Virus record (IMG/VR): IMGVR_UViG_3300050821_012097
Coordinates: 1 to 20,887 of that record
Source of the DNA: a virus
Strand: one strand, 5' to 3'
DNA length: 20,887 nt
Shown here in pieces: positions 3,463 through 18,198 of this stretch; position 1 is the stretch's first letter, and each line of letters starts with the position of its first letter. The notes beneath the pieces were generated by a model. The model made no database searches. It was not told the origin of the DNA and saw only the letters and a list, made by a program, of their open reading frames with translations. Both the position numbers and the translations under genes were made by a program.

Positions 3463-4999
3463 ATCAGTCCAACAACCAGATATCTCCGCTGGTACCGAGA
3501 TCGGCGACGATATCTATTTTCAGCATGCCAGCGGACCAGCATGTGGTCCTGTGCGCGCTAAGGGGCAGCATGGCGTAACGGTGCATCATGCCGGTAAGCA
3601 TCATCAGGTCAAATGGGAACACGTTCTTGGTCACAAGAAGCGCGCGGCCATCAAGTACGATATCGTTGACGAGGGTGAGGATGGGCTCATCGTTGCCGGA
3701 CAGGATGGCGCTAAGAAGTTCATGAAGATACCGCCAGAAGCGCGGCTTGGCGACATGGTTCTGGAGAAATCAATTGGTGGCGATCGCGTTGTCATGCTGA
3801 AGTCGATGGCGCCGCGCGCCAGCCTATCCCGCAAGTTGATCACCGATAAGAATGGCGTGCAGGTGAACAAGTGGGTGCGCACCGGCCAAGATGCAGCAAA
3901 GCCGCGCCAATCCGCTGCGGCCGATGAACATCCGACGCACGTAAAATTTCAACATGGTGACTTCAATGGTGAGGGGAAAGTGCTATACAGTGGCGCCGAT
4001 GGGCATACCGTCCAGGATGCTGCCGGTGGCGTTCACAGAATACCGCATGCCAGTGTGACGCATACTGCACCAGTGCAAGATGACGAAACCATTCACCCAG
4101 ACAAATTCAGCGCGGCCGACTTCGCCAAGCAGCATGATGATCCGGATGTCACTCCAGAAAGCATCATGGCTGCGCAGACGCCAGAGGTGCGTGAACGCGC
4201 GGCCAAGACGGTTGAAAAGCTCAGCACTGTCAAGTCGACAGACCAAGAGCATTCGCAAAACGGCATCTGGAACCCTGAACGCGCGGCGCTACAGCGCAAG
4301 ATCATGTTCGATGGCGTTGAAATAAAAGGCAAGAAGGTACCTGGGTTGCTCGCACCAGATCGGATCAAGGCTGCTACACCGGCGCCAAGCACTAAACCAA
4401 CGTTCATCGCGCTCGGTGGCCGCGGTGGTTCTGGCAAGTCCACGCTGAACGGCAAGGTCTACCAGGAAGAGAATGCCATCGTGCTAGACGCCGATCACAT
4501 CAAGGGGATGTTGCCTGAGTACGCTGGTTGGAACGCGCACCAGGTTCATGAAGAGTCTGGGCATATCCTTGATAGCGTGCTCGCAATGGCAAAGATACTC
4601 GGCGTCAATGTCGTGTTGGACGCCACCATGAAGACTGGCAAGTCGCTAGAAGACAAAATCAATTCGTTCAAGGATGCCGGATTCCGCACCGAAGCGCATT
4701 ACATGCACCTTCCGCGCCAAGAAGCGGCCAAGCGAGCAATGTCGCGGTTCGCCGACGGCGGTGAATCGGGGCGATATGTGCCGCCGGAAGTGGTACTCGG
4801 TAACACTGAGAACGAAGCCAATTTCGACAAAATCAAGAATAACGTCGATGCATGGTCATTCCATGACAACAACCGCACCAAAGAAGAAGGTCCCAAGCTG
4901 ATCAGTCAACGTGGTACGCCCGCACTTGTCTCAAAAAAGATCATGACAAAGGCGATCAGTAGGCATATACTGTTCATGAGAGGGGCGCATCATGGCTGA
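3449..4999 (+). CDS. Zeta-toxin-like P-loop kinase with N-terminal extension
   Basis: A protein of about 516 aa (520 if the in-frame GTG at 3437 is used; ATG 3449 is preferred, though neither start has a strong Shine-Dalgarno). The gene overlaps the end of the spike gene. The C-terminal third is a zeta-toxin/polynucleotide-kinase-like domain: Walker A G-G-R-G-G-S-G-K-S-T at residues 323-332, then V-L-D-A-D-H-I-K, where zeta enzymes have their catalytic Asp, and V-V-L-D-A-T-M-K downstream. Zeta toxins phosphorylate UDP-N-acetylglucosamine, but related kinases do other chemistry, so the substrate is not claimed. The N-terminal two thirds hold two small beta-rich repeats (Y-F-Q-H-A-S-G-P and V-K-F-Q-H-G-D-F), then V-V-M-L-K-S followed by D-K-N-G-V. 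No epsilon-like antitoxin gene is adjacent. Zeta domains are known components of phage polyvalent proteins. The motif I-M-T-K-A recurs near the C terminus. Confidence 0.75.
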   Translation: MELSKSVQQPDISAGTEIGDDIYFQHASGPACGPVRAKGQHGVTVHHAGKHHQVKWEHVLGHKKRAAIKYDIVDEGEDGLIVAGQDGAKKFMKIPPEARLGDMVLEKSIGGDRVVMLKSMAPRASLSRKLITDKNGVQVNKWVRTGQDAAKPRQSAAADEHPTHVKFQHGDFNGEGKVLYSGADGHTVQDAAGGVHRIPHASVTHTAPVQDDETIHPDKFSAADFAKQHDDPDVTPESIMAAQTPEVRERAAKTVEKLSTVKSTDQEHSQNGIWNPERAALQRKIMFDGVEIKGKKVPGLLAPDRIKAATPAPSTKPTFIALGGRGGSGKSTLNGKVYQEENAIVLDADHIKGMLPEYAGWNAHQVHEESGHILDSVLAMAKILGVNVVLDATMKTGKSLEDKINSFKDAGFRTEAHYMHLPRQEAAKRAMSRFADGGESGRYVPPEVVLGNTENEANFDKIKNNVDAWSFHDNNRTKEEGPKLISQRGTPALVSKKIMTKAISRHILFMRGAHHG

Positions 5000-5165
5000 A
5001 GAAAAGAAGGTTCACGGCATACCGCATGGACATTTTGATGGATACGATGGCGGTACCGAGCTGCCAGCGGAGTTCATCTCTGAATTGTTGAAAGGTGCAC
5101 CGCCAGAGATCAAGGCGCGTGCTGCTGAATTCGCTAAAGAACGTGCCACAAAAAAAGATGAATAA
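4992..5165 (+). CDS. Small conserved-looking protein, 57 aa
   Basis: This short gene overlaps the kinase gene by 8 nt and has a strong Shine-Dalgarno (GAGAGGGG, about 6 nt before the ATG). The product begins M-A-E-E-K-K-V-H-G-I-P-H-G-H-F-D-G-Y-D-G-G and ends in a charged helix (A-K-E-R-A-T-K-K-D-E). It has no membrane segment or recognisable domain. The tight overlap, ribosome site and phage-like codon use make it a real gene. Co-translation with the kinase could mean a partner or regulator, but no function is claimed. Confidence 0.7.
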   Translation: MAEEKKVHGIPHGHFDGYDGGTELPAEFISELLKGAPPEIKARAAEFAKERATKKDE

Positions 5166-5169
5166 TCGC

Positions 5170-5199
5170 TTGACAAAGTTTATTCAAATTTGATCTAAT
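5170..5199 (+). promoter_or_regulatory. Sigma70-type promoter
   Basis: A perfect -35 box TTGACA (5170-5175), an 18-bp AT-rich spacer and -10 TCTAAT (5194-5199, 5 of 6 matches). The predicted transcript starts near 5206. This gives a 20-odd nt leader before the GAAGG/ATG of the Ig-like gene and rules out the ATG at 5198 as its start. Transcription could continue into the structured RNA region. Confidence 0.7.
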
Positions 5200-5227
5200 G
5201 CAGATGTTCTGTCGTGAAGGTAAATTT

Positions 5228-5683
5228 ATGTTCGAATGCTTCCATCGCCATCGGCACGAAGCTCGGCGATTAACTATTATTAAGGTTGAAAAACTCATGG
5301 ATATCAAATTTCAAGTCGGTGGCGTGCTCACCGAAACCGTTCTGGCTGTGTTCAAAGATGCTGAGGGAAATGTCACCAACGCGCATGGTGCTGTCGTATT
5401 TACCTCGTCTGACGAAACCATTGCGACCGTCGTTGAAGGTGCTGACGGTGCATCGGCTGTGGTGACTGGTACCGGAAAGGTTGGTACAGCCACCATCACC
5501 GCTACTGACGCTGCTGATCATGCATCCGATATCGCCACAGTGACTACCATTGCCGGCGAAGCCGTGTCGCTCACACTCGAAGAAGCGCCTGCGCCAGTCG
5601 TGGCGGAAGCTGTTGAAGCAGCGCCAGTCGAAGCGGCTCCTGCTTCTGAACCGGTACCTGAAGCAGCAGCGCCAGCGGCTTAA
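5228..5683 (+). CDS. Ig-like (BIG2-type) domain virion protein
   Basis: A protein of 151 aa. I chose ATG 5228 because GAAGG lies 7 nt upstream and because the in-frame ATG at 5198 lies inside the -10 box; ATG 5297 (M-D-I-K-F-Q-V-G-G) is a possible later start with a weaker site. Residues 24-115 read as one bacterial Ig-like domain of the BIG2 type: alternating strands, V-F-T-S-S-D-E-T-I-A-T-V, then G-x-G-x-V-G-T-A-T-I-T-A-T-D. The C terminus is a low-complexity Ala/Pro/Glu tail (A-P-A-P-V-V-A-E-A). Such small Ig-like proteins in phages are commonly head decoration or tail surface proteins that bind the host surface weakly; which one cannot be told here. It has its own promoter, consistent with high expression. 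Confidence 0.75.
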   Translation: MFECFHRHRHEARRLTIIKVEKLMDIKFQVGGVLTETVLAVFKDAEGNVTNAHGAVVFTSSDETIATVVEGADGASAVVTGTGKVGTATITATDAADHASDIATVTTIAGEAVSLTLEEAPAPVVAEAVEAAPVEAAPASEPVPEAAAPAA

Positions 5684-5709
5684 TTCGATAAGTTGTAATT
5701 TAGACGCAA

Positions 5710-5731
5710 TGATGCCTCTTCGGAGGCATCA
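5710..5731 (+). other. 9-bp hairpin with UUCG tetraloop
   Basis: TGATGCCTC-TTCG-GAGGCATCA folds into a perfect 9-bp stem with an ultra-stable UUCG loop, 27 nt after the Ig-like stop codon. No U tract follows, so it is more likely an mRNA 3'-end stabiliser, processing boundary or first helix of the RNA region than a true intrinsic terminator. Confidence 0.7.
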
Positions 5732-5800
5732 CATGAATTGGCAGTGGAGTATTGGAGAAATCTGTACTCAAGGTGGAGAGCCGCACTGCCAATCCATGTG
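5730..5800 (+). ncRNA. Multi-arm stem-loop RNA element
   Basis: A long closing stem pairs CACATG (5730-5735) with CATGTG (5795-5800) and TTGGCAGTG (5738-5746) with CACTGCCAA (5784-5792), separated by a 2x2 internal loop: 15 bp in total. Inside are an arm GAGTA/TACTC (5747-5751/5765-5769) and a weak GGT/GCC arm. It shares its first two bases with the preceding hairpin. The shape recalls a reduced tRNA (seven-base-pair acceptor-like stem, single base, CCA at 5794-5796), but it lacks canonical D or T loops. It is probably a domain of, or a companion to, the large RNA downstream. Confidence 0.5.
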
Positions 5801-5867
5801 ATAAAAGCGGATGCCGTGGAAACGATTCGATAGGTCACCATGGTGTAGCGAGTAGTCACAAGATTAC

Positions 5868-5939
5868 AGCGGGGGAATGTGATGGTGCAGGAGAGTCTCA
5901 TAAGATCTCAGACCGGTTCGATTCCGGCGACCGCTACCA
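5868..5939 (+). tRNA. tRNA-Met(CAU)-like gene, degenerate
   Basis: The sequence has a canonical T arm (CCGG-TTCGATT-CCGG), a canonical anticodon loop CTCATAA with anticodon CAT at 5899-5901, a short D arm with a GG-containing loop (GATGGT) closed by three pairs, and an encoded CCA at 5937-5939. The acceptor stem pairs AGCGG with CCGCT (5 bp), but its two inner pairs are mismatched. The anticodon stem has one A-G mismatch, and the whole is 72 nt including CCA, about 4 nt short. It may be a decayed phage tRNA or a tRNA-like domain of the structured RNA. Strand and limits are clear; function is not. Confidence 0.5.
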
Positions 5940-5944
5940 GATAT

Positions 5945-7233
5945 TATAGAAACACCGTGAGAGAGAGCAGTACGCCAGTGAACAGCACTGCAGGCACTTG
6001 GCGGTGTTGTGCTTCGGAGTGATCTGAGGTCCAACACCAGAGAGCATGAACAAAACCAGTTTCACCGCTAGTTGAGCGGCTCAGGAGAAATCCGGAAATC
6101 AGCGTTTCAAGGCTAGTTGGTGCCTGTTAATCATGCTCTCTGGTATTGGTGAATGCACGGACTGACGTGTAATTTGAACAAAACGCGCGTTCGCGGTGTG
6201 GAGTTCAACCGCCAAATGTCGGGGATCAGTACCGACCACCAACACCACTATTGCGCACACAAGTGGCTAAAATTGTGTAAGAGTCCAAATTGTTGAATGA
6301 CTCAACGTCGGATCGTACCGACAACTGGTTTGGTGGAAACCTTACTGGTGAAAACTCTACAATGAATTACACGACAACATAGATACATCTTGGCGTCGTT
6401 ACTGAATTTTTCCTTGTGACCTCTGCACTTGTTGCATGAAGGAACCCGGCGCAACGTCACAGAAGTATGCCGGCGTGAGTGATGAATAGCAATCGCGGCA
6501 TGAGAAAGCCTGGAGTCAGTAGATCATGGAACGGCTTGACGCTCGGAGAGACGAGAAAAATAGAAAAGTGCGGGTTTGATTCCCGATCAATTGCAGAGGG
6601 CTTGGTAGCGACGAGAGAGTGGTTCGAGTCCACTGATGTGCGACAGGGACGCAAAGGCATGGCAGGCTGGGAAGACAGCCACGGAATTGATGAATTGGTG
6701 ATGCGCGCAGGCATGCAAACAAAACCACTTCAAAGGTCTGTCAATACGATTCAACACATGGCATCGAAAGCATTGTTGAATAAGTGAATGGTGTGGTTCC
6801 GGCCAGTTGACAACATAGTTGGTATTAGCGACTTTCGACAAGCGATATTAGCAACGGAACTACGAATATAGCCCAACGCCGGCTGCTGTAATGGATTGAG
6901 GCCATTCTCGATGTGGCGACATCGGGGTAATCAAGAGCTTCGCACGAGAGCTTTCCTCTGATCGTGAGTGTAAGCGGCCCCGATCGGCCTGGCTTATAAG
7001 CGTCAGCCGCGTACACACAGGCCAAGGCAGTGGAATGCTGCCATGAATTCAGATATGGCTGTTCGGATGACGATCTGGTATTCCCTGTAAATCAAGATTT
7101 TGGCCGGCACTCTTGTAAATAAAACCGGACGATGATTACCCTACGCGCGGATGCGCAAAATCTGCCACATGATACGGTGGACGCAGGAACCAGTAACCTG
7201 CTGCGATGAACCCGGCTCCGTGCCGGGTTTTTT
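5945..7233 (+). ncRNA. Candidate large structured non-coding RNA (GOLLD/ROOL-type?)
   Basis: About 1.3 kb with no convincing protein gene but many precise helices, ending at an intrinsic terminator. Examples: 5951-5957/6002-6008; 6036-6049/6131-6144 (14 bp perfect, extended by 4 bp 6031-6034/6146-6149) enclosing the hairpin 6065-6079; 6218-6222/6232-6236; 6307-6311/6318-6322; 6371-6375/6395-6399; 6415-6420/6456-6461 enclosing 6431-6435/6451-6455; 6750-6756/6774-6780; 6793-6801/6855-6863 (9 bp, one G-U); 6909-6914/6919-6924; 6986-6991/7018-7023; 7026-7030/7038-7042; 7096-7102/7156-7162. Large ornate RNAs such as GOLLD and ROOL are known from phages, lie near or contain tRNAs, and are this order of size. 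Membership in either family is inference from size, context and structure; it may be a new class. Transcription could come from the 5170 promoter or a local one I do not see. Confidence 0.6.
7209..7233 (+). terminator. Rho-independent terminator
   Basis: AACCCGGC pairs with GCCGGGTT around a 5-nt loop (TCCGT), followed directly by a run of six T (7228-7233). It sits at the 3' end of the structured region and 160 nt before the next gene, so it ends the RNA transcript rather than a protein gene. Confidence 0.85.
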
Positions 7234-7392
7234 CACATCTAGTGACAATACACTCAACCCATGCCGTAGCAGGCTGCCGTCAGCGGGCGTGGGCAATTAA
7301 ACCACCGCAGTGCGCCATGGTGGTGTGGATGTGTGGACCACGGTTTTTCGGCTGCCAGGGGCGCGCGCTCGTCGTGATCATATTCTAGCAAG
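7234..7392. other. GC-rich leader upstream of MuF gene, nothing identified
   Basis: There is no credible ORF, clear promoter or Shine-Dalgarno here. Short inverted repeats (GTGG/CCAC near 7325-7342) are present but weak. It must contain, or lie downstream of, whatever drives the MuF gene. Confidence 0.4.
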
Positions 7393-8535
7393 ATGACCCT
7401 ATTAATCGACGTTGGCGCGTGCTGCGATGCGCATACTGATAGCACATTGGAGCATCTTCACAAGGCGATCGGTGAGGGTGATGATGACGCACTTTTTAAC
7501 CCACATCATTCCCCATTTATTTCTAAACTTATAGAACTGTTCACGCAGCGCGGCCTGTTGCGTCTCGATGGATTCCGCAACGAACTGACTCAGTGGCTCG
7601 CAGGTGAGCGTCACGTCGAAGGTTACAAGCTACCTCGCCCGGGTATGATGGATCGCTGGACCGATTCAGAAATCAAGTTGGTCAAGTTATACCTTGAGGC
7701 ATTCCCTCCTGGCGAATTCACGTTGGACGATTACATGCTGTGCGTGGATATGCTGGTGCAGAAATACTTGCCGGCTGATGCGTTGCGCACTGAGGCAGAA
7801 TGGCTCGCAACACGATCTGTTCTGATGGGGCGCGTGCAGGCCAACATGGCGAACTTGACCACCAAGCAGGCCGATATGTTGTTGGAAACGTTGCCTACTA
7901 CCGTGGCGGCTGCCGAATCAGAATTCCCGTTCACGCCAATACAGCGCGCCGTTCTCGAATACGCCAATGCGGCAGGTGCCGAAAATATCGTCAATTTACG
8001 CGAAGGTGCACGGCATGCCATCAAGACGATCATTCGCCTCAAAATGGCAGCACAGACACTCGGAACTGATCGACCATTAAATCGACTGCAAACTGAGTTG
8101 TTCGATTACTTCGGCGATCTCAATCGCGACTGGCGCCGGATAGCTTTGACAGAGGTTGCCGAAAACAGTAACCAAGGATACATCGCCAGTCTATCGCCAG
8201 GTACCTACGTTCGGCGCCAAGAAAGGTACAAGGGCGCGTGCCCATTCTGCCGCAAGATTGATGGTCGTGTGATGGAAGTTGTGCCGCCTGGTATGGCCGA
8301 TAAAGACGGTGAGACGCAGATATGGGTTGGTAAAACAAATATCGGTCGTAGTGCTGCGCCGCGTCGCCGCGTCGCTGGTGTGCTGATTGAGAGGCAACCT
8401 GATGAAAAATTTTGGGTCGCAGCAGGCGTTCAACACGTAAACTGCCGCGGCACATGGCTTCCAGAGATCACTGACTTACCCGGGGAAGACCCAGAATTTG
8501 GGAAATGGCTACGGGAAACACTGAGGAATAAATAA
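7393..8535 (+). CDS. MuF-like minor head protein (head morphogenesis)
   Basis: This 380-aa protein carries the C-terminal MuF signature: D-W-R-R-I-A-L-T-E-V (246-255), the pair C-P-F-C at 283-286 followed by K-I-D-G-R, and H-V-N-C-R-G-T-W at 348-355. In the family these Cys/His residues form a compact fold in a protein present in few copies per head, next to the portal, needed for head assembly and often injected with DNA. The N-terminal 200 residues are helical and unrecognised. No good Shine-Dalgarno precedes the ATG at 7393, so the start is less certain than the frame. Its stop overlaps the next start (TAATG). MuF domains are also a common building block of phage polyvalent proteins, matching its neighbours. 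Confidence 0.85.
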   Translation: MTLLIDVGACCDAHTDSTLEHLHKAIGEGDDDALFNPHHSPFISKLIELFTQRGLLRLDGFRNELTQWLAGERHVEGYKLPRPGMMDRWTDSEIKLVKLYLEAFPPGEFTLDDYMLCVDMLVQKYLPADALRTEAEWLATRSVLMGRVQANMANLTTKQADMLLETLPTTVAAAESEFPFTPIQRAVLEYANAAGAENIVNLREGARHAIKTIIRLKMAAQTLGTDRPLNRLQTELFDYFGDLNRDWRRIALTEVAENSNQGYIASLSPGTYVRRQERYKGACPFCRKIDGRVMEVVPPGMADKDGETQIWVGKTNIGRSAAPRRRVAGVLIERQPDEKFWVAAGVQHVNCRGTWLPEITDLPGEDPEFGKWLRETLRNK

Positions 8536-9152
8536 TGACTGACGCTATCAAATGGCCTGAAAAACCAACCTGTCATCAAGGCGGCATCCATGCAAGCGAA
8601 GAAGTATGGTGCCCTGCTGGTGTAAAGCTGCATCCAACCGATGGCACCATTCCAGCGTTCCGAACATGCAGTTATTGCGGATCGATGCATCATGAAGATC
8701 TCATGAACGCCATTGCGTCTGGTGCGACTATGGGTGGTGCCGACTGGAAGTATGGTTGGCCACACAAGTTCTATGTCGATAAAATTCCAAATCCGCATGC
8801 TGGCGTGCGCGAGTGCCGCGCCAGTACATCGCGCAGTGATCGCAATCCGATGCCAGAAGAAGAGCGTATCGCTGCCGGATATGATCCTGCTGAGATCAAA
8901 GAGGAAATCGTTACCACCAAGATCAATGGCGTCGTCGAGAATTCCAGATCGACTATTTCATTGATTTATAAAAAATGGACACCAGCGGCCGCGACGACGC
9001 ACGGCAAGTGGTACAACGAGCATTTCAAAGACCTTGAACCTGCTGCATTTGCGGCGTTGGCTGAAGTAATTTTCGAAAAAACCAAGATCCGATTCATCAT
9101 GGATGATCTCGGATTGAAGTTTTTGGCACCTCACATGGGTTATCAGGCATAG
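8535..9152 (+). CDS. Phage protein with zinc-ribbon-like CSYCGS motif
   Basis: This 205-aa protein is translationally coupled to the MuF gene (TAATG) and has TGAGGA 7 nt before its ATG. It has an N-terminal Cys/His cluster: C13, H15, H19, C26, then C-S-Y-C-G-S followed by M-H-H-E-D-L (about residues 45-55), which could bind one zinc ion. The centre (K-F-Y-V-D-K-I-P-N-P) and C terminus (F-I-M-D-D-L-G-L-K-F) resemble uncharacterised phage proteins with an R-T-C-S-Y-C-G-S start. No enzyme motif is visible. Being between MuF and other virion-side genes, it may be a minor structural or packaging factor; that is inference. Confidence 0.7.
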   Translation: MTDAIKWPEKPTCHQGGIHASEEVWCPAGVKLHPTDGTIPAFRTCSYCGSMHHEDLMNAIASGATMGGADWKYGWPHKFYVDKIPNPHAGVRECRASTSRSDRNPMPEEERIAAGYDPAEIKEEIVTTKINGVVENSRSTISLIYKKWTPAAATTHGKWYNEHFKDLEPAAFAALAEVIFEKTKIRFIMDDLGLKFLAPHMGYQA

Positions 9153-9154
9153 CC

Positions 9155-9490
9155 ATGAGTCAGATATCAAAAAAGTTACGTGATTGGGATGGCGATGGAC
9201 AAAAAGGTCTGTTATTTTTCTGTCCTGGTTGCAATAAGGCGCATTCTATCCGCACTGATGAAGGGGGATGGAATTGGAATGGCGATATTGAAAATACGAC
9301 TTTCATGCCATCGGTAAAAGTCACCTATCCAGCTTATCCTAAAGCTAGTGAAAAATTTAAAGAATGGCACACTGAACGTATCTGCCATTCATTCGTTAAG
9401 GATGGCATGATTCAATTTCTCGGAGACTGCACACATACGCTTGTTGGGCAGACTGTTCAGCTTGCAGATTTCCCGGAGCATTACGGATGA
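9155..9490 (+). CDS. DUF6527-like small protein
   Basis: This 111-aa protein starts 2 nt after the previous stop. It shows the pattern I associate with DUF6527: F-F-C-P-G-C-N-K-A-H-S near residue 21, G-W-x-W-N-G-D, M-P-S-V-K-V, then C-H-S-F-V-K-D-G-M-I-Q-F-L-G-D-C-T-H-x-L-x-G-Q-T-V-Q-L near the C terminus. The conserved Cys and His residues suggest a metal-binding fold. The family is small, common in proteobacterial phages and of unknown function. The gene ends in an ATGA overlap with the next large gene, so it belongs to the same operon. Confidence 0.75.
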   Translation: MSQISKKLRDWDGDGQKGLLFFCPGCNKAHSIRTDEGGWNWNGDIENTTFMPSVKVTYPAYPKASEKFKEWHTERICHSFVKDGMIQFLGDCTHTLVGQTVQLADFPEHYG

Positions 9491-13677: not shown

Positions 13678-16600
13678 ATGACGACCATACTTTTCTTCAA
13701 ATCATCGATACCTGACGGTGCCCGTTGGATTAGCGTCAGACCAAATGGACCAGGGACAAAAGGTCAGCCGGTATTGATCCAACCTACTCCAGATGGCGGG
13801 GCCCGAGTAATCGGCGGCGCAGGGGGTTCTCTCAATTACTTGAAGATTCGACATGTAAAGTCAGAATCAGAATACAAACAGGAAGCTTCACAAAAGCAAA
13901 AAGACAAGCAGGAAGCCGCCAAGGCGCAGCGCAAAGCCGACAAAGCCGCTGGTCTGGTCGACTCGAAGAAAAAGGCACATGCAGACATCAAGAAGCAGCG
14001 CACCGAGCACGAAAAGAAATTCGTCCAGGCGGTTGCGCAGTCGATGGGTTGGAAAGACGAAGAACTCAAGTTACCAGAGTCAGCCACCAAAGATTTATCA
14101 GAGGCAGCCGTCAATAAGGCCACCGAACAGCGCCACCGCGATCTTGTCGCGCGCGCCAACGAGGCGGTCGACCTACAACGTCGCATGCTTGTCGATGACG
14201 CGGCTGTCCGCATGGAAGCAGATATCGGAGAGATTCCGCTCGAATCGACTGATCCTGACGTCTTGTCCGTCGAGGATATCAACCCGGTCAAATCGGAGTC
14301 TGGTGGCCTCGGCTTCGCGCCGCACTACAAGGAACGTGCCGAAGAGGCGGGGTTAAAACCTGAAGAACTCAAGCAAGAGGCTGATGCGGTCAAAGCGATA
14401 AAGCAACAGGCCATGTCGCCGGCGCAGCGCAATGCAGCAGTGAAGCGTGGAGAAACTGCCGATATGGTCACCGCCGAATTGGCGAATATCCGCGAACCGA
14501 TCACCGTCAACGCGCCGTTGAAGTTGGTAGAGGCAAAAAAAGCCGTCGAGTTGATGAAAGCGCAAAAGGAATTGCGCCAGATCGTCAAAAAGACGCAAGT
14601 TGCCAACAAGGAAATATCAAAGTCGGCGGCTGAGCCGAAAGCGTACGTGATCGAGTACACCGCTGATCCGGATGCAGATAAATCCATCAAATCTGACATC
14701 GAGAACGATTTACGCACGGTCAAGACAAAAGCATTCCTGTCCGAGTACGAGCGTCTGGCCGGCGACGCGTCCACCGAGACGCTTGGCAGGTACATCGGCG
14801 TGGGCGCGTACAACAGCATAAATTCGCTTGCGCTTGCGGTCGGTGGCGATGCGTTGGTTGATCGCTCCGTCGTGGATGTGCTCGGCATTGCAGGTGCCGC
14901 GCAGGTGCTTGCACGCCGGATCCATACTGACTTGCCTGATACGGTTGAAGACATTACGACCGGCATGCAAGAATTCCACATGGACCATTACATGAAGGCG
15001 TCCGAATCGGCACTCTCCGATGCGCGTGACCTCATGGAGACGGCCCGCGAAATAGAACTTGGCGAAATGGCCAGTGGCACCGATCTGCAGGCCGGACAGG
15101 AATTGAATGCACGCCGACGTAGCGCCATTACCGACGCTCAAAAAATACTCGGACAGACGCTTGGCGAGCTCGAAGCCAACGCGGCATTGGTGGTTGCATT
15201 GAAGCAAGGTAAGAAAAACGACTTTCAGGTATCGCTTGGCAAGAAGTCCATCGAGAGTTCGATTCAACAGGCGCGCGCGATCGGGTTGCAGCGTGGCGAT
15301 TACACCATTGAGGAAGTGGCTGGCGACAAGTTCCTCACGATCAATGGCGCCGGACTAGATCGTCTGGCCAAGCCGGTTAATCCAGCCGACGTCGCGCAGG
15401 TGAAGCGCAATATCGCTATTATCCGCGGTGATGATGACCAAGATGGCTGGTTGCCTGGCGGCGTGGCTGATCGCCCTGATCTCGCGATGGATGTCAAGGC
15501 CGGCGCGGCACCGCAATTGGCTGAACCTTTTGATCCGGGCCCAGACCTTGAACAGTCCTTACGTGATTACATCGGCGGCCGCGCCGCTGATGGCGATACG
15601 GCTGGCGACATCATTGCAGATATCCAGTCGGCTGCGTTCTTTGCAAAAGCAGGTGACAACGATGCGTACCGCGCCGCATTGGAAGTGGTTGCGCCGCTGG
15701 GTTCAGGCCAATTGCGCGCGGAGACGTTTGAACCGATGTTCGACAAGTATGCCGATGAGTTTGTCGATAAAAGGTATGGAAATACGCGATCGACGTTGAA
15801 CAAGCAGAAATTCACGGTGGATCAGAAGTCCGTCGACGCGCTGCACCGCGCACTGGCGGATACACCAGAGGGTACGGCGGCGTACAAGCCGATCGGCGAA
15901 CTCACCGGCACCGATCAACGCGCCATTCGCGAGTTCTTTCACCGCAATATCGCCAAAGAGTCGCCAGACGCTGGTTCACTGCGTAGTGAACTAGAGTCGC
16001 ATAACGCAGCCAAGCCATCGGAAAAAGTGCAAGACATGTTCGGCGATGAGGTTGACAACCCATCGCACTCGGATTGGCGTGCTCGGCGTGATGAACTAAC
16101 TGCGCGTGTGAAAGATTCCAGTCTGACATGGGGTAAATATGTTGCTGCGATGCATGGTAATGAAAACGCCTATGCTTCCGTCCAGGATTTGATTCGATCG
16201 AAAGTTGGTAAGTCGTTTGCGGATATTCACAATAAGCTCAACCCTGATGCGCCCATCAAACTTGGTAAGTCGGTCATCCGTGGCAACCTGAATCATCTTG
16301 ATGCGGTCGACCCGGTTGCTCGTGAGGCGCGCCTCGCTAGTGATCGCGCAATGGTGGACAGCTTACGCGAACGCGCCGGCGGCAAGTATGCTTCCGGTTC
16401 GGTAGCGCACAAGATCGACGCCGCGCGCGATCAGAAAGAGGCATTTAATCAATCACAAATGGGGTTCTTTGCAGATGACTCGCCGCCGGATGATGCCAAG
16501 TTGGTACAGATCGGACAGGATGAGCGGCATTCGTTGGGACATGCGGCTGAGCGGCAGATTGCCGGTATGATGGAGCATGTCGGAAAAAACTTCAAGCCCG

Positions 16601-18198
16601 GGCAGCCTACTAAGATCTGGGCACCATCCATGAGCGGGGGCAAGAACGCTGCGCGCCAACGCCTAGTAAAACTGGTCGATGCGAATAAACGTGTGATGGC
16701 TGCCTTCGGCACCGGTAGCGGCAAAAGTTTGTTGCAACTTGCATCTTTTACAAACTTGAAGGAACAAGGCAAAGCAAAGCGTGGTATCGCGCTGGTACCG
16801 TCGATCGTGCAAGGGCAGTTCAATGGCGAAGCGCTGCGATACATGACGCCTGGGAAGTATAACTTCCATATTCAACCTGGCGCAAGTAGAGATGAACGCA
16901 TCGCTGCTTACAAAAATCCTGAGCATGATTTTTGTGTGGTGACGCATCAAAGTTTCCGTGATGACATGTTGCACCTTGGCGCGCAGCACGCTGGTATGTC
17001 GCCGACCGAGATGAGTGCCAAGTTGAATACTGTGACGCGTGGTGAGCGCCAAGAATGGATGAGAGGCGTCATGGATAAAGAGGGGATCAACTTCGATTAC
17101 CTCACTGTCGATGAATCTCAGAATACGCTCAACCGTGCTGGCAAAGAAAACTCCGGCTTGGCCAACATCGCCGATGCGCTGGGCGACAATACTGAGTATC
17201 TGCTTCACGCAAGCGGGGACCCAGTAAAGAACGATGCAAGCGAAGTGTTTGATTTATTGTCAAAAATGGACCATAAACGGTACACTGACCGTGCCGCTTT
17301 CATGCGTCGATATGGTGCCGATACGCTCGCCAGTAAAGATGCGCTCAAGCGTGAAATGGCACGGTACATGTACCCATCGCGTATTGATCCTGATGTCGAG
17401 GCTGATCGTCGCACTGAGACAGTACCGTTATCGGCTGGGCAGAAGCTTGCCATGGCGGAAATGGACAAGCATTTCAGTGACGCTCGCATCGCGCGCATGC
17501 AGGGTAAAGTTGATATTGATGCAGTCAAGGCCATATCACCTACATCGTTCGATGGCGTTCCTGCAGATCAGCATGAGGTGATCGCCGCAGACTTGCAGGC
17601 CAACATCGGCATCTTGAAGCAGTCGGCGATGCAAAAAATCATCAATACGCATGCTGATAATGCCAAGATTGATCGCATATCTGCAATGGCCAAAGAGCGT
17701 AAAGGGAAACCAGGTGTCGTATTCGCGCATTCGCTGGATGCTGTAAAAGAGATTTCAGCGCGGTTGCAGAAAGAAGGGCATCGCGTGGTATCTCTGACTG
17801 GCGCCGACTCATCCACCGAAAAAGAGCGTAAGCGGCTTATTTTCAATCCAGAGAGCGGTGAAGCTGGCGCCGATATCATGGTGGCTTCTGACGCCGGCGC
17901 AACTGGAATGAATATCCAGCGTGGGCAATGGATGGTACAGATGGATATCCCCCAAACGGCTTTGACGCACGCTCAACGAAATGGACGAATATTCAGAACT
18001 GGTCAAAAAAACAATGTAGAGTTGACCGATCTTGTCGCCGACCACGCCAGCGAGCGCAAGGCGCGCGACAGGTTGACGAAAAAGTATGGGCTACGCGATA
18101 TGATGACGTCGCCTATGGATGGGTTCGACGATGTTGGCGTGGCGGCTTTCTTGAACCAGCGGAATTCGCACAAACAGGATAGCCAACAAGTAGCTTAA
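13678..18198 (+). CDS. SNF2-type helicase polyvalent protein, 1506 aa
   Basis: This very large protein begins M-T-T-I-L-F-F-K-S followed by the W-I-S-V-R-P-N-G-P-G-T-K-G-Q-P-V segment I associate with phage polyvalent proteins. Residues 60-330 are charged coiled-coil; about 330-950 are alpha-helical and unassigned. The C-terminal third is an SF2/SNF2-type ATPase: Walker A G-T-G-S-G-K-S at 1011-1017, motif II D-E-S-Q at 1145-1148 (DEAH or DESH is usual), motif III S-G-D-P, motif V G-A-T-G-M-N-I-Q and motif VI Q-R-N-G-R-I-F-R-T-G-Q at 1433-1443. Such proteins are thought to be packaged and injected to protect or remodel incoming DNA. No methyltransferase motif is visible, although many relatives carry one. 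No clear Shine-Dalgarno precedes ATG 13678; a three-codon ORF (ATG 13670, M-V-E-stop) overlaps it. Confidence 0.85.
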   Translation: MTTILFFKSSIPDGARWISVRPNGPGTKGQPVLIQPTPDGGARVIGGAGGSLNYLKIRHVKSESEYKQEASQKQKDKQEAAKAQRKADKAAGLVDSKKKAHADIKKQRTEHEKKFVQAVAQSMGWKDEELKLPESATKDLSEAAVNKATEQRHRDLVARANEAVDLQRRMLVDDAAVRMEADIGEIPLESTDPDVLSVEDINPVKSESGGLGFAPHYKERAEEAGLKPEELKQEADAVKAIKQQAMSPAQRNAAVKRGETADMVTAELANIREPITVNAPLKLVEAKKAVELMKAQKELRQIVKKTQVANKEISKSAAEPKAYVIEYTADPDADKSIKSDIENDLRTVKTKAFLSEYERLAGDASTETLGRYIGVGAYNSINSLALAVGGDALVDRSVVDVLGIAGAAQVLARRIHTDLPDTVEDITTGMQEFHMDHYMKASESALSDARDLMETAREIELGEMASGTDLQAGQELNARRRSAITDAQKILGQTLGELEANAALVVALKQGKKNDFQVSLGKKSIESSIQQARAIGLQRGDYTIEEVAGDKFLTINGAGLDRLAKPVNPADVAQVKRNIAIIRGDDDQDGWLPGGVADRPDLAMDVKAGAAPQLAEPFDPGPDLEQSLRDYIGGRAADGDTAGDIIADIQSAAFFAKAGDNDAYRAALEVVAPLGSGQLRAETFEPMFDKYADEFVDKRYGNTRSTLNKQKFTVDQKSVDALHRALADTPEGTAAYKPIGELTGTDQRAIREFFHRNIAKESPDAGSLRSELESHNAAKPSEKVQDMFGDEVDNPSHSDWRARRDELTARVKDSSLTWGKYVAAMHGNENAYASVQDLIRSKVGKSFADIHNKLNPDAPIKLGKSVIRGNLNHLDAVDPVAREARLASDRAMVDSLRERAGGKYASGSVAHKIDAARDQKEAFNQSQMGFFADDSPPDDAKLVQIGQDERHSLGHAAERQIAGMMEHVGKNFKPGQPTKIWAPSMSGGKNAARQRLVKLVDANKRVMAAFGTGSGKSLLQLASFTNLKEQGKAKRGIALVPSIVQGQFNGEALRYMTPGKYNFHIQPGASRDERIAAYKNPEHDFCVVTHQSFRDDMLHLGAQHAGMSPTEMSAKLNTVTRGERQEWMRGVMDKEGINFDYLTVDESQNTLNRAGKENSGLANIADALGDNTEYLLHASGDPVKNDASEVFDLLSKMDHKRYTDRAAFMRRYGADTLASKDALKREMARYMYPSRIDPDVEADRRTETVPLSAGQKLAMAEMDKHFSDARIARMQGKVDIDAVKAISPTSFDGVPADQHEVIAADLQANIGILKQSAMQKIINTHADNAKIDRISAMAKERKGKPGVVFAHSLDAVKEISARLQKEGHRVVSLTGADSSTEKERKRLIFNPESGEAGADIMVASDAGATGMNIQRGQWMVQMDIPQTALTHAQRNGRIFRTGQKNNVELTDLVADHASERKARDRLTKKYGLRDMMTSPMDGFDDVGVAAFLNQRNSHKQDSQQVA

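Follow-up and report, generated by a model that had tools for sequence, protein, structure and literature searches.

Organization of the locus

The window, that is, the whole stretch of 20,887 nt analysed here, comes from a bacterial virus and contains about 1.7 kb devoid of any credible gene between a small Ig-domain gene (ending at 5683) and a minor head gene (starting at 7393). An earlier note, made from the sequence, had described a large structured non-coding RNA locus embedded in a phage structural gene cluster and lacking any credible protein gene. Both statements agree with the present data, as 5716–7233 carries no credible gene, the small ORFs of this gene-free stretch of 1.3–1.5 kb have no match in Pfam and the region displays more helices than shuffled sequences. 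The minor head protein is common to phages of 90–95 kb (Bordetella phage PHB04, Pseudomonas phages Dolphis and Jeremy, Aeromonas phage ST4) and is also found in 25 IMG/VR loci. Among the named relatives, the corresponding interval is either short or occupied by other genes, so that the site is variable. Elsewhere in the window, a protein with many short repeats of the LTTAQV type is encoded at the very start (2–1378), and the interval separating the head genes from the protease encodes a 1506-aa protein with motifs that look helicase-like by eye (13678–18198).

The search for known RNAs was negative. In the window, no Rfam 15 covariance model reaches its gathering score, nothing convincing (GOLLD and ROOL included) appears at a relaxed threshold of E ≤ 10, the models of tmRNA and permuted tmRNA give no match and ARAGORN calls neither tRNA nor tmRNA. 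The Rfam models of self-cleaving ribozymes match neither the window nor the relatives searched, and no DNA similarity links the whole region to named phages or plasmids.

The folding statistics are those of a structured region. Ten helices of at least 8 bp are observed versus 3.7 ± 2.0 in 100 dinucleotide shuffles. The folding energy of 5945–6745 (plus strand) is below that of shuffled sequences (z = −3.9) and this segment folds better than coding controls (z from −2.0 to +1.6), the 3′ part (6440–7240, plus strand) being weaker (z = −1.7). The locus is a non-coding structured-RNA locus of a phage structural cluster and belongs to a tRNA/tmRNA island.

Structural modules of the region

The structured region had been placed at 5945–7233; it is indeed structured but begins earlier, all its features lying on the plus strand. 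Its first element is a 19-bp hairpin (5728–5802, 95% complementary) directly 5′ of a tRNA remnant. In a close metagenomic relative, L048, the equivalent hairpin (CACACGAATTGG..CCAATTCGTGTG) precedes a tRNA-Met and shows a T-A to C-G compensation relative to the window. The remnant itself, recognized by sequence, is a degenerate tRNA-Met (5868–5939) that retains an AGCGG/CCGCT acceptor, a CTCATAA anticodon loop with the anticodon CAT at 5899–5901, a T-arm at 5914–5928 with the T-loop GGTTCGATTCC, and a CCA end at 5937–5939.

The next module, M2 (6012–6156), consists of CTTCG..GAGG, a 19-bp helix (6031–6049/6131–6149, 95% complementary) and then GGTGAATGC. This main helix, which includes the perfect 14-bp helix noticed previously (6036–6049/6131–6144), is beyond chance, no helix of 14 bp being reached in any of 100 dinucleotide shuffles. 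Among the loci compared, M2 is found elsewhere only in the syntenic locus of L025, which carries two copies whose stems differ from that of the window yet remain complementary, and whose flanks (CTTCG..GAGG and GGTGAATGC) are the same. These two copies thus bring compensatory support to the 14-bp helix. The L025 segment (8405–9330) harbours the two M2 copies in tandem, together with three tRNAs and a number of orphan T-arms that end in CCA.

Downstream, a stem (CCGGC 6446–6450/GCCGG 6469–6473) lies just 5′ of a pseudoknot core (6472–6566) that is described by a covariance model, R1, and supported by covariation (see below). The stem is recognized by sequence and reads CCAGC/GCTGG in L132 and L133 and ACGGC/GCCGT in L023. 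The core is followed by two hairpins that resemble T-arms in sequence (CGGG TTTGATT CCCG, 6571–6585, and AGTGGTTCGAGTCCACT, 6618–6634), both kept in L013 (1225–1341), and by a possible diverged second copy of hairpin C of the core (GGCTG GGAAGA CAGCC, 6665–6680), which is included in a weak R1 match (6585–6690, 11.9 bits, E = 1.8).

In the 3′ half of the region, the 9-bp hairpin reported earlier (6793–6801/6855–6863) is present by sequence but finds no comparative support, since the close relative L048 has no counterpart and shows a different hairpin there. The covariation anticipated for the helices of the earlier note is therefore seen at the 14-bp helix and not at the 9-bp one. The 9-bp hairpin is followed by a 3′ domain (6864–7024) defined by its similarity to L048 (8875–9034; 73% identity, E = 2e-19). 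The alignment of these two sequences over 6860–7062 includes 36 consensus pairs, of which 10 are changed on both sides yet paired and six on one side. A small hairpin (GCAGG AACCAGTAA CCTGC, 7183–7201), recognized by sequence, corresponds to GCCAG..CTGGC at the same place in L004. The last element, 7205–7233, is a terminator-like hairpin (AACCCGGC/GCCGGGTT) with a T-run. What had been presented as a textbook terminator is visible by eye, as a hairpin (7209–7229) followed by T, and its neighbourhood (7158–7233) is 82% conserved in L004, but a strict terminator scan does not list it. Globally, the comparative data favour separate modules, i.e. the pseudoknot core, the long helix, the 3′ domain and the T-arm-like hairpins, variably present among relatives.

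Syntenic relatives

Metagenomic relatives often carry a tRNA/tmRNA island in the corresponding interval, and the locus is of a kind found near tRNAs. A tRNA-Met(CAT) occupies the syntenic place in L009, L010, L017, L025, L048 and L053; it is intact in these relatives where the window carries the degenerate copy, and the island of L048 also includes a tRNA-Tyr. In L017, a phage-borne permuted tmRNA (4260–4510; RF04321, 92.6 bits) is found with the tRNA-Met just 5′. These tRNA-Met and permuted tmRNA genes occupy the syntenic spot in six relatives (L017, L048, L053, L009, L010 and L025), whereas the window has only the degenerate tRNA-Met and no tmRNA match.

Other sequences recur in these islands. 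A hairpin module, M1 (GCYGGAGACGTAACCRGC), is present in L048 (8842–8875), on the reverse strand of L040 (6797 and 7052) and in L010 (7527), with compensatory changes in the stem. Segments of the CCCTCACGCATGCG type recur in the same island of L009, L010, L053 and L023; in the first three, they lie opposite CGCAGTCGTGAGGG, and they form long-range stems. An insertion that looks like an intein seems to split the minor head gene of L048 (9213–11420; 735 aa; ...HPNCFISRNVNIYTV...VVVHNCRGSW...). The pseudoknot core was sought in L048 and is absent from it.

A family of pseudoknot cores

A nhmmer search with the window alone retrieved a single syntenic relative of 6437–6551, in L023, the first external member. 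Matches in unrelated contigs were then obtained by scanning for an exact pattern, and additional scans brought the core set to 24 members, one of them in a prophage-like part of a Defluviitaleaceae MAG (L065); phage zth2-2 is the 25th. Pattern matches in L131 and in the group L035/L039/L042/L044/L045 were dropped, being apparently coding sequences without the pairing. A 17-base pattern scan of genomes gave 14 matches, of which only L065 has a downstream pairing partner.

The core, of about 75 nt, comprises an H-type pseudoknot (helices A and B), an invariant GAC linker and then a hairpin, C, with a freely varying stem and an invariant GGAGAGA loop. The window displays all of this: helix A (6497–6499/6515–6517), helix B (6506–6510/6533–6537) and hairpin C (6542–6545/6552–6555, loop GAGAGA), together with the conserved TGAC and GGAGAGA. 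The R1 match on 6472–6566 reaches 87.1 bits (E = 6.8e-20), the window being part of the training set.

In a MAFFT alignment of 21 members built without any structure information, the 5 bp of helix B form in every sequence and three of these pairs change on both sides, and the middle pair of helix A varies between GC, CG, UA and AU. L112 and L132, scored as broken at helix A, probably agree with it since they carry an insertion after the 5′ strand. Over the 25 distinct members and the three helices, 96.3% of the cells are paired and nine of the 13 pairs change on both sides. This amounts to 63 cells with two-sided compensatory changes versus 16.5 ± 3.8 after shuffling (none of 500 shuffles as high), while sliding the partners by 1–3 columns lowers pairing to 26–40%. 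Helices B and C, but not helix A, guided the fitting of the 25-member alignment; the 21-member one was unfitted. On this comparative ground, the full pseudoknot can be taken as proven for the 25 core members only.

Some core members lie beside terminase or portal genes (L060, L106, L132, L134) and others beside replication genes (L062, L142). A packaging RNA, suggested by the former neighbourhood, was rejected because of the latter. A cellular origin was also rejected: in 291 bacterial genomes, the only match of the motif is an already known prophage, and E. coli genomes gave no match.

A wider family sharing the 3′ half

A BLAST query with a hand-written consensus of the core (92 nt) gave matches, mostly intergenic and through the 3′ half, in phages of Vibrio, Gordonia, Aggregatibacter and Rhodobacter, among others, and a second consensus added phages of Planktothrix, Erwinia, Mannheimia, Bacteroides, Rhizobium, Sinorhizobium and Stenotrophomonas. 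Many of these matches have individual E-values near 1 and rest on the logic of the hairpins. Vibrio phage L141 displays, by eye, the same topology, i.e. a GACGT..ACGTC hairpin whose CAAGTT loop pairs with AACTTG, located just before TGAC and a GGAAAGA hairpin.

Scanning for the 3′ half (GTGACANNNCGGAGAGACG) retrieved at least 120 viral contigs, versus about eight expected by our own estimate. Three further stem pairs are all present in 94 of the 115 distinct listed copies (22 ± 3.5 with shuffled partners), and in 53 of 108 loci (13.6 ± 2.9 expected) the 70 nt upstream include a perfect complement, corresponding to helix B, of the five bases preceding GAC. Most copies of this wider set match R1 mainly in the 3′ half.

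The motif is associated with tRNA genes and with itself. A tRNA lies within 1 kb in 27 of the 108 loci versus 13.3 expected for random positions in the same loci, and all 27 are on the strand of the motif. The distribution peaks with nine tRNAs that begin 26–33 nt after the motif start, i.e. a few bases past the hairpin; tRNAs located upstream end 81–710 nt before it. Additional copies within 600 nt are all on the same strand (27 versus none on the opposite one), compared with three in about 1 Mb elsewhere, and L219, L179 and L125 carry three tandem copies each. The next gene is convergent in 32 of the 126 contexts scored with rough ORF calls. No enrichment of sigma-70-like promoters was found upstream of the motif in 142 loci, phage promoters being possibly different; a promoter-linked leader finds no support in this result.

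Relationship to known RNAs and possible functions

The earlier note had hesitated between a divergent member of GOLLD or ROOL and a new class. The former is contradicted by the lack of any match to these covariance models at gathering score or at E ≤ 10; the latter is borne out, the core family being absent from Rfam and displaying covariation. With no match in Rfam 15 and no description of the motif in a literature search of partial coverage, we regard this RNA family as new; should it turn out to be a ribozyme or to act like put, it would represent a novel form of an already known kind.

Variable stems combined with an invariant loop, tandem reuse and a strand shared with the tRNAs are the signature of docking sites. 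That stems vary while loop and linker are invariant, in units repeated on one strand, argues for recognition of a shared factor or for a self-acting RNA instead of DNA signals or coding sequence, and the spread among hosts suggests that the partner is universal. CsrB/RsmZ-type sponge RNAs similarly repeat a hairpin whose loop is constant and whose stem varies; the present family differs from them by its GGAGAGA loop and GAC linker, unlike the ANGGA site of CsrA, by the adjacent pseudoknot and by its association with tRNAs.

We tentatively favour, at slightly less than an even chance, a phage non-coding RNA made of reusable docking hairpins and tied to untranslated tRNA-island transcripts. The island transcript would most likely be made together with the RNAs of the tRNA island, each module would dock one conserved factor, or another RNA, and docking might protect, process or retain the untranslated transcript during infection. 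Against this stand the majority of the 108 loci, which have no recognized tRNA within 1 kb, the lack of the core in L048 and the convergent genes mentioned above. More broadly, it seems an evenly balanced proposition that this is an undescribed virus-specific RNA class whose tandem pseudoknot-plus-hairpin module would dock a universal cellular factor (or self-cleave) and thereby govern how tRNA-island transcripts are processed or whether they survive, in phages that infect several bacterial phyla.

The first alternative, which we consider unlikely, is that the module acts in cis in RNA processing, perhaps as a small self-cleaving ribozyme, and would separate the tRNAs and other RNAs of the island transcript. 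Such a role would suit a compact pseudoknot in which unpaired bases are conserved, as well as the tandem copies located between genes and the nine copies whose end lies a few bases 5′ of a tRNA. There is also a precedent for phage ribozymes at tRNAs, the HDV-like theta ribozymes, which cleave at tRNA 3′ ends and are mostly known from gut phages (PMC10879173). These are likewise small pseudoknotted RNAs associated with phage tRNA genes, but they are located 3′ of the tRNAs whereas the present module is mainly 5′, the order of helices is different and no Rfam ribozyme model matches. The position of theta cleavage sites, at most 5 nt from the 3′ end of a tRNA, does not fit either, the nearest tRNA in the peak class being downstream of the motif, and many copies are far from any tRNA.

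A cis-acting antitermination element that would bind RNA polymerase like put of HK022, shielding untranslated islands and operon starts, appears quite improbable. In its favour, some copies are located before genes for terminase (L060, L134, L137) or replication (L062, L142) or after a Q-like antitermination gene, protection from termination would be required by untranslated tRNA islands and the host spread suggests a universal target. Moreover, put is also a short folded phage RNA with conserved residues and a presumed host-factor target. However, put consists of two stem-loops downstream of early promoters (PMC9378689), without such a pseudoknot, whereas no enrichment of sigma-70-like promoters is seen upstream of the present motif and several copies precede convergent genes; the two were set apart by description.

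ROOL and GOLLD are phage-encoded, non-coding and ornate RNAs that are often found near tRNA islands (PMC12286853), and the window shares these features. That the region forms a comparable large RNA-only assembly, the hairpins being intermolecular contacts, would account for its size and helices, its phage origin and its tRNA neighbourhood, but is very improbable: the window matches neither GOLLD (RF02032) nor ROOL even at E ≤ 10, and the widespread part of the family is a module of about 75 nt, often in tandem and often just one short module. A very weak GOLLD match (E = 3.3) occurs in L065 (1–214), directly beside a tRNA and 6 kb from the core. Finally, a decaying tRNA island, whose helices would be tRNA or tmRNA remnants without present function, would account for the degenerate tRNA-Met, the orphan T-arms and the intact tRNAs or permuted tmRNA of relatives, but it is disfavoured, to the point of being highly improbable, by the covariation of the core, kept with compensatory changes in unrelated phages, and by the lack of any match that would make the core tRNA-derived.

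Few classes of phage non-coding RNAs are known and most have no known function. The module proposed here as a docking site is small enough for in vitro tests and has a clear structure whose invariant positions can be mutated, and its 3′ half is found in named phages whose hosts can be cultured (Vibrio, Gordonia, Rhodobacter, Erwinia, Stenotrophomonas, Sinorhizobium, Planktothrix and Bacteroides). Its neighbourhood with tRNA genes raises the testable question of what phages place between their tRNAs and of which host factor they use. Two further observations concern the surroundings of the core in L040. On the reverse strand, at about 6612–6660, a hammerhead-like sequence (CCTGATGAGTCCGTGAAATTCGGACGAAAC) that does not exceed the Rfam gathering score lies 5′ of the core. 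Downstream of the core, the minus strand (4791–5687) encodes a protein that resembles, by eye, the variable proteins of diversity-generating retroelements and ends with GRALIRGGCWYSGG..RNVGFRS.
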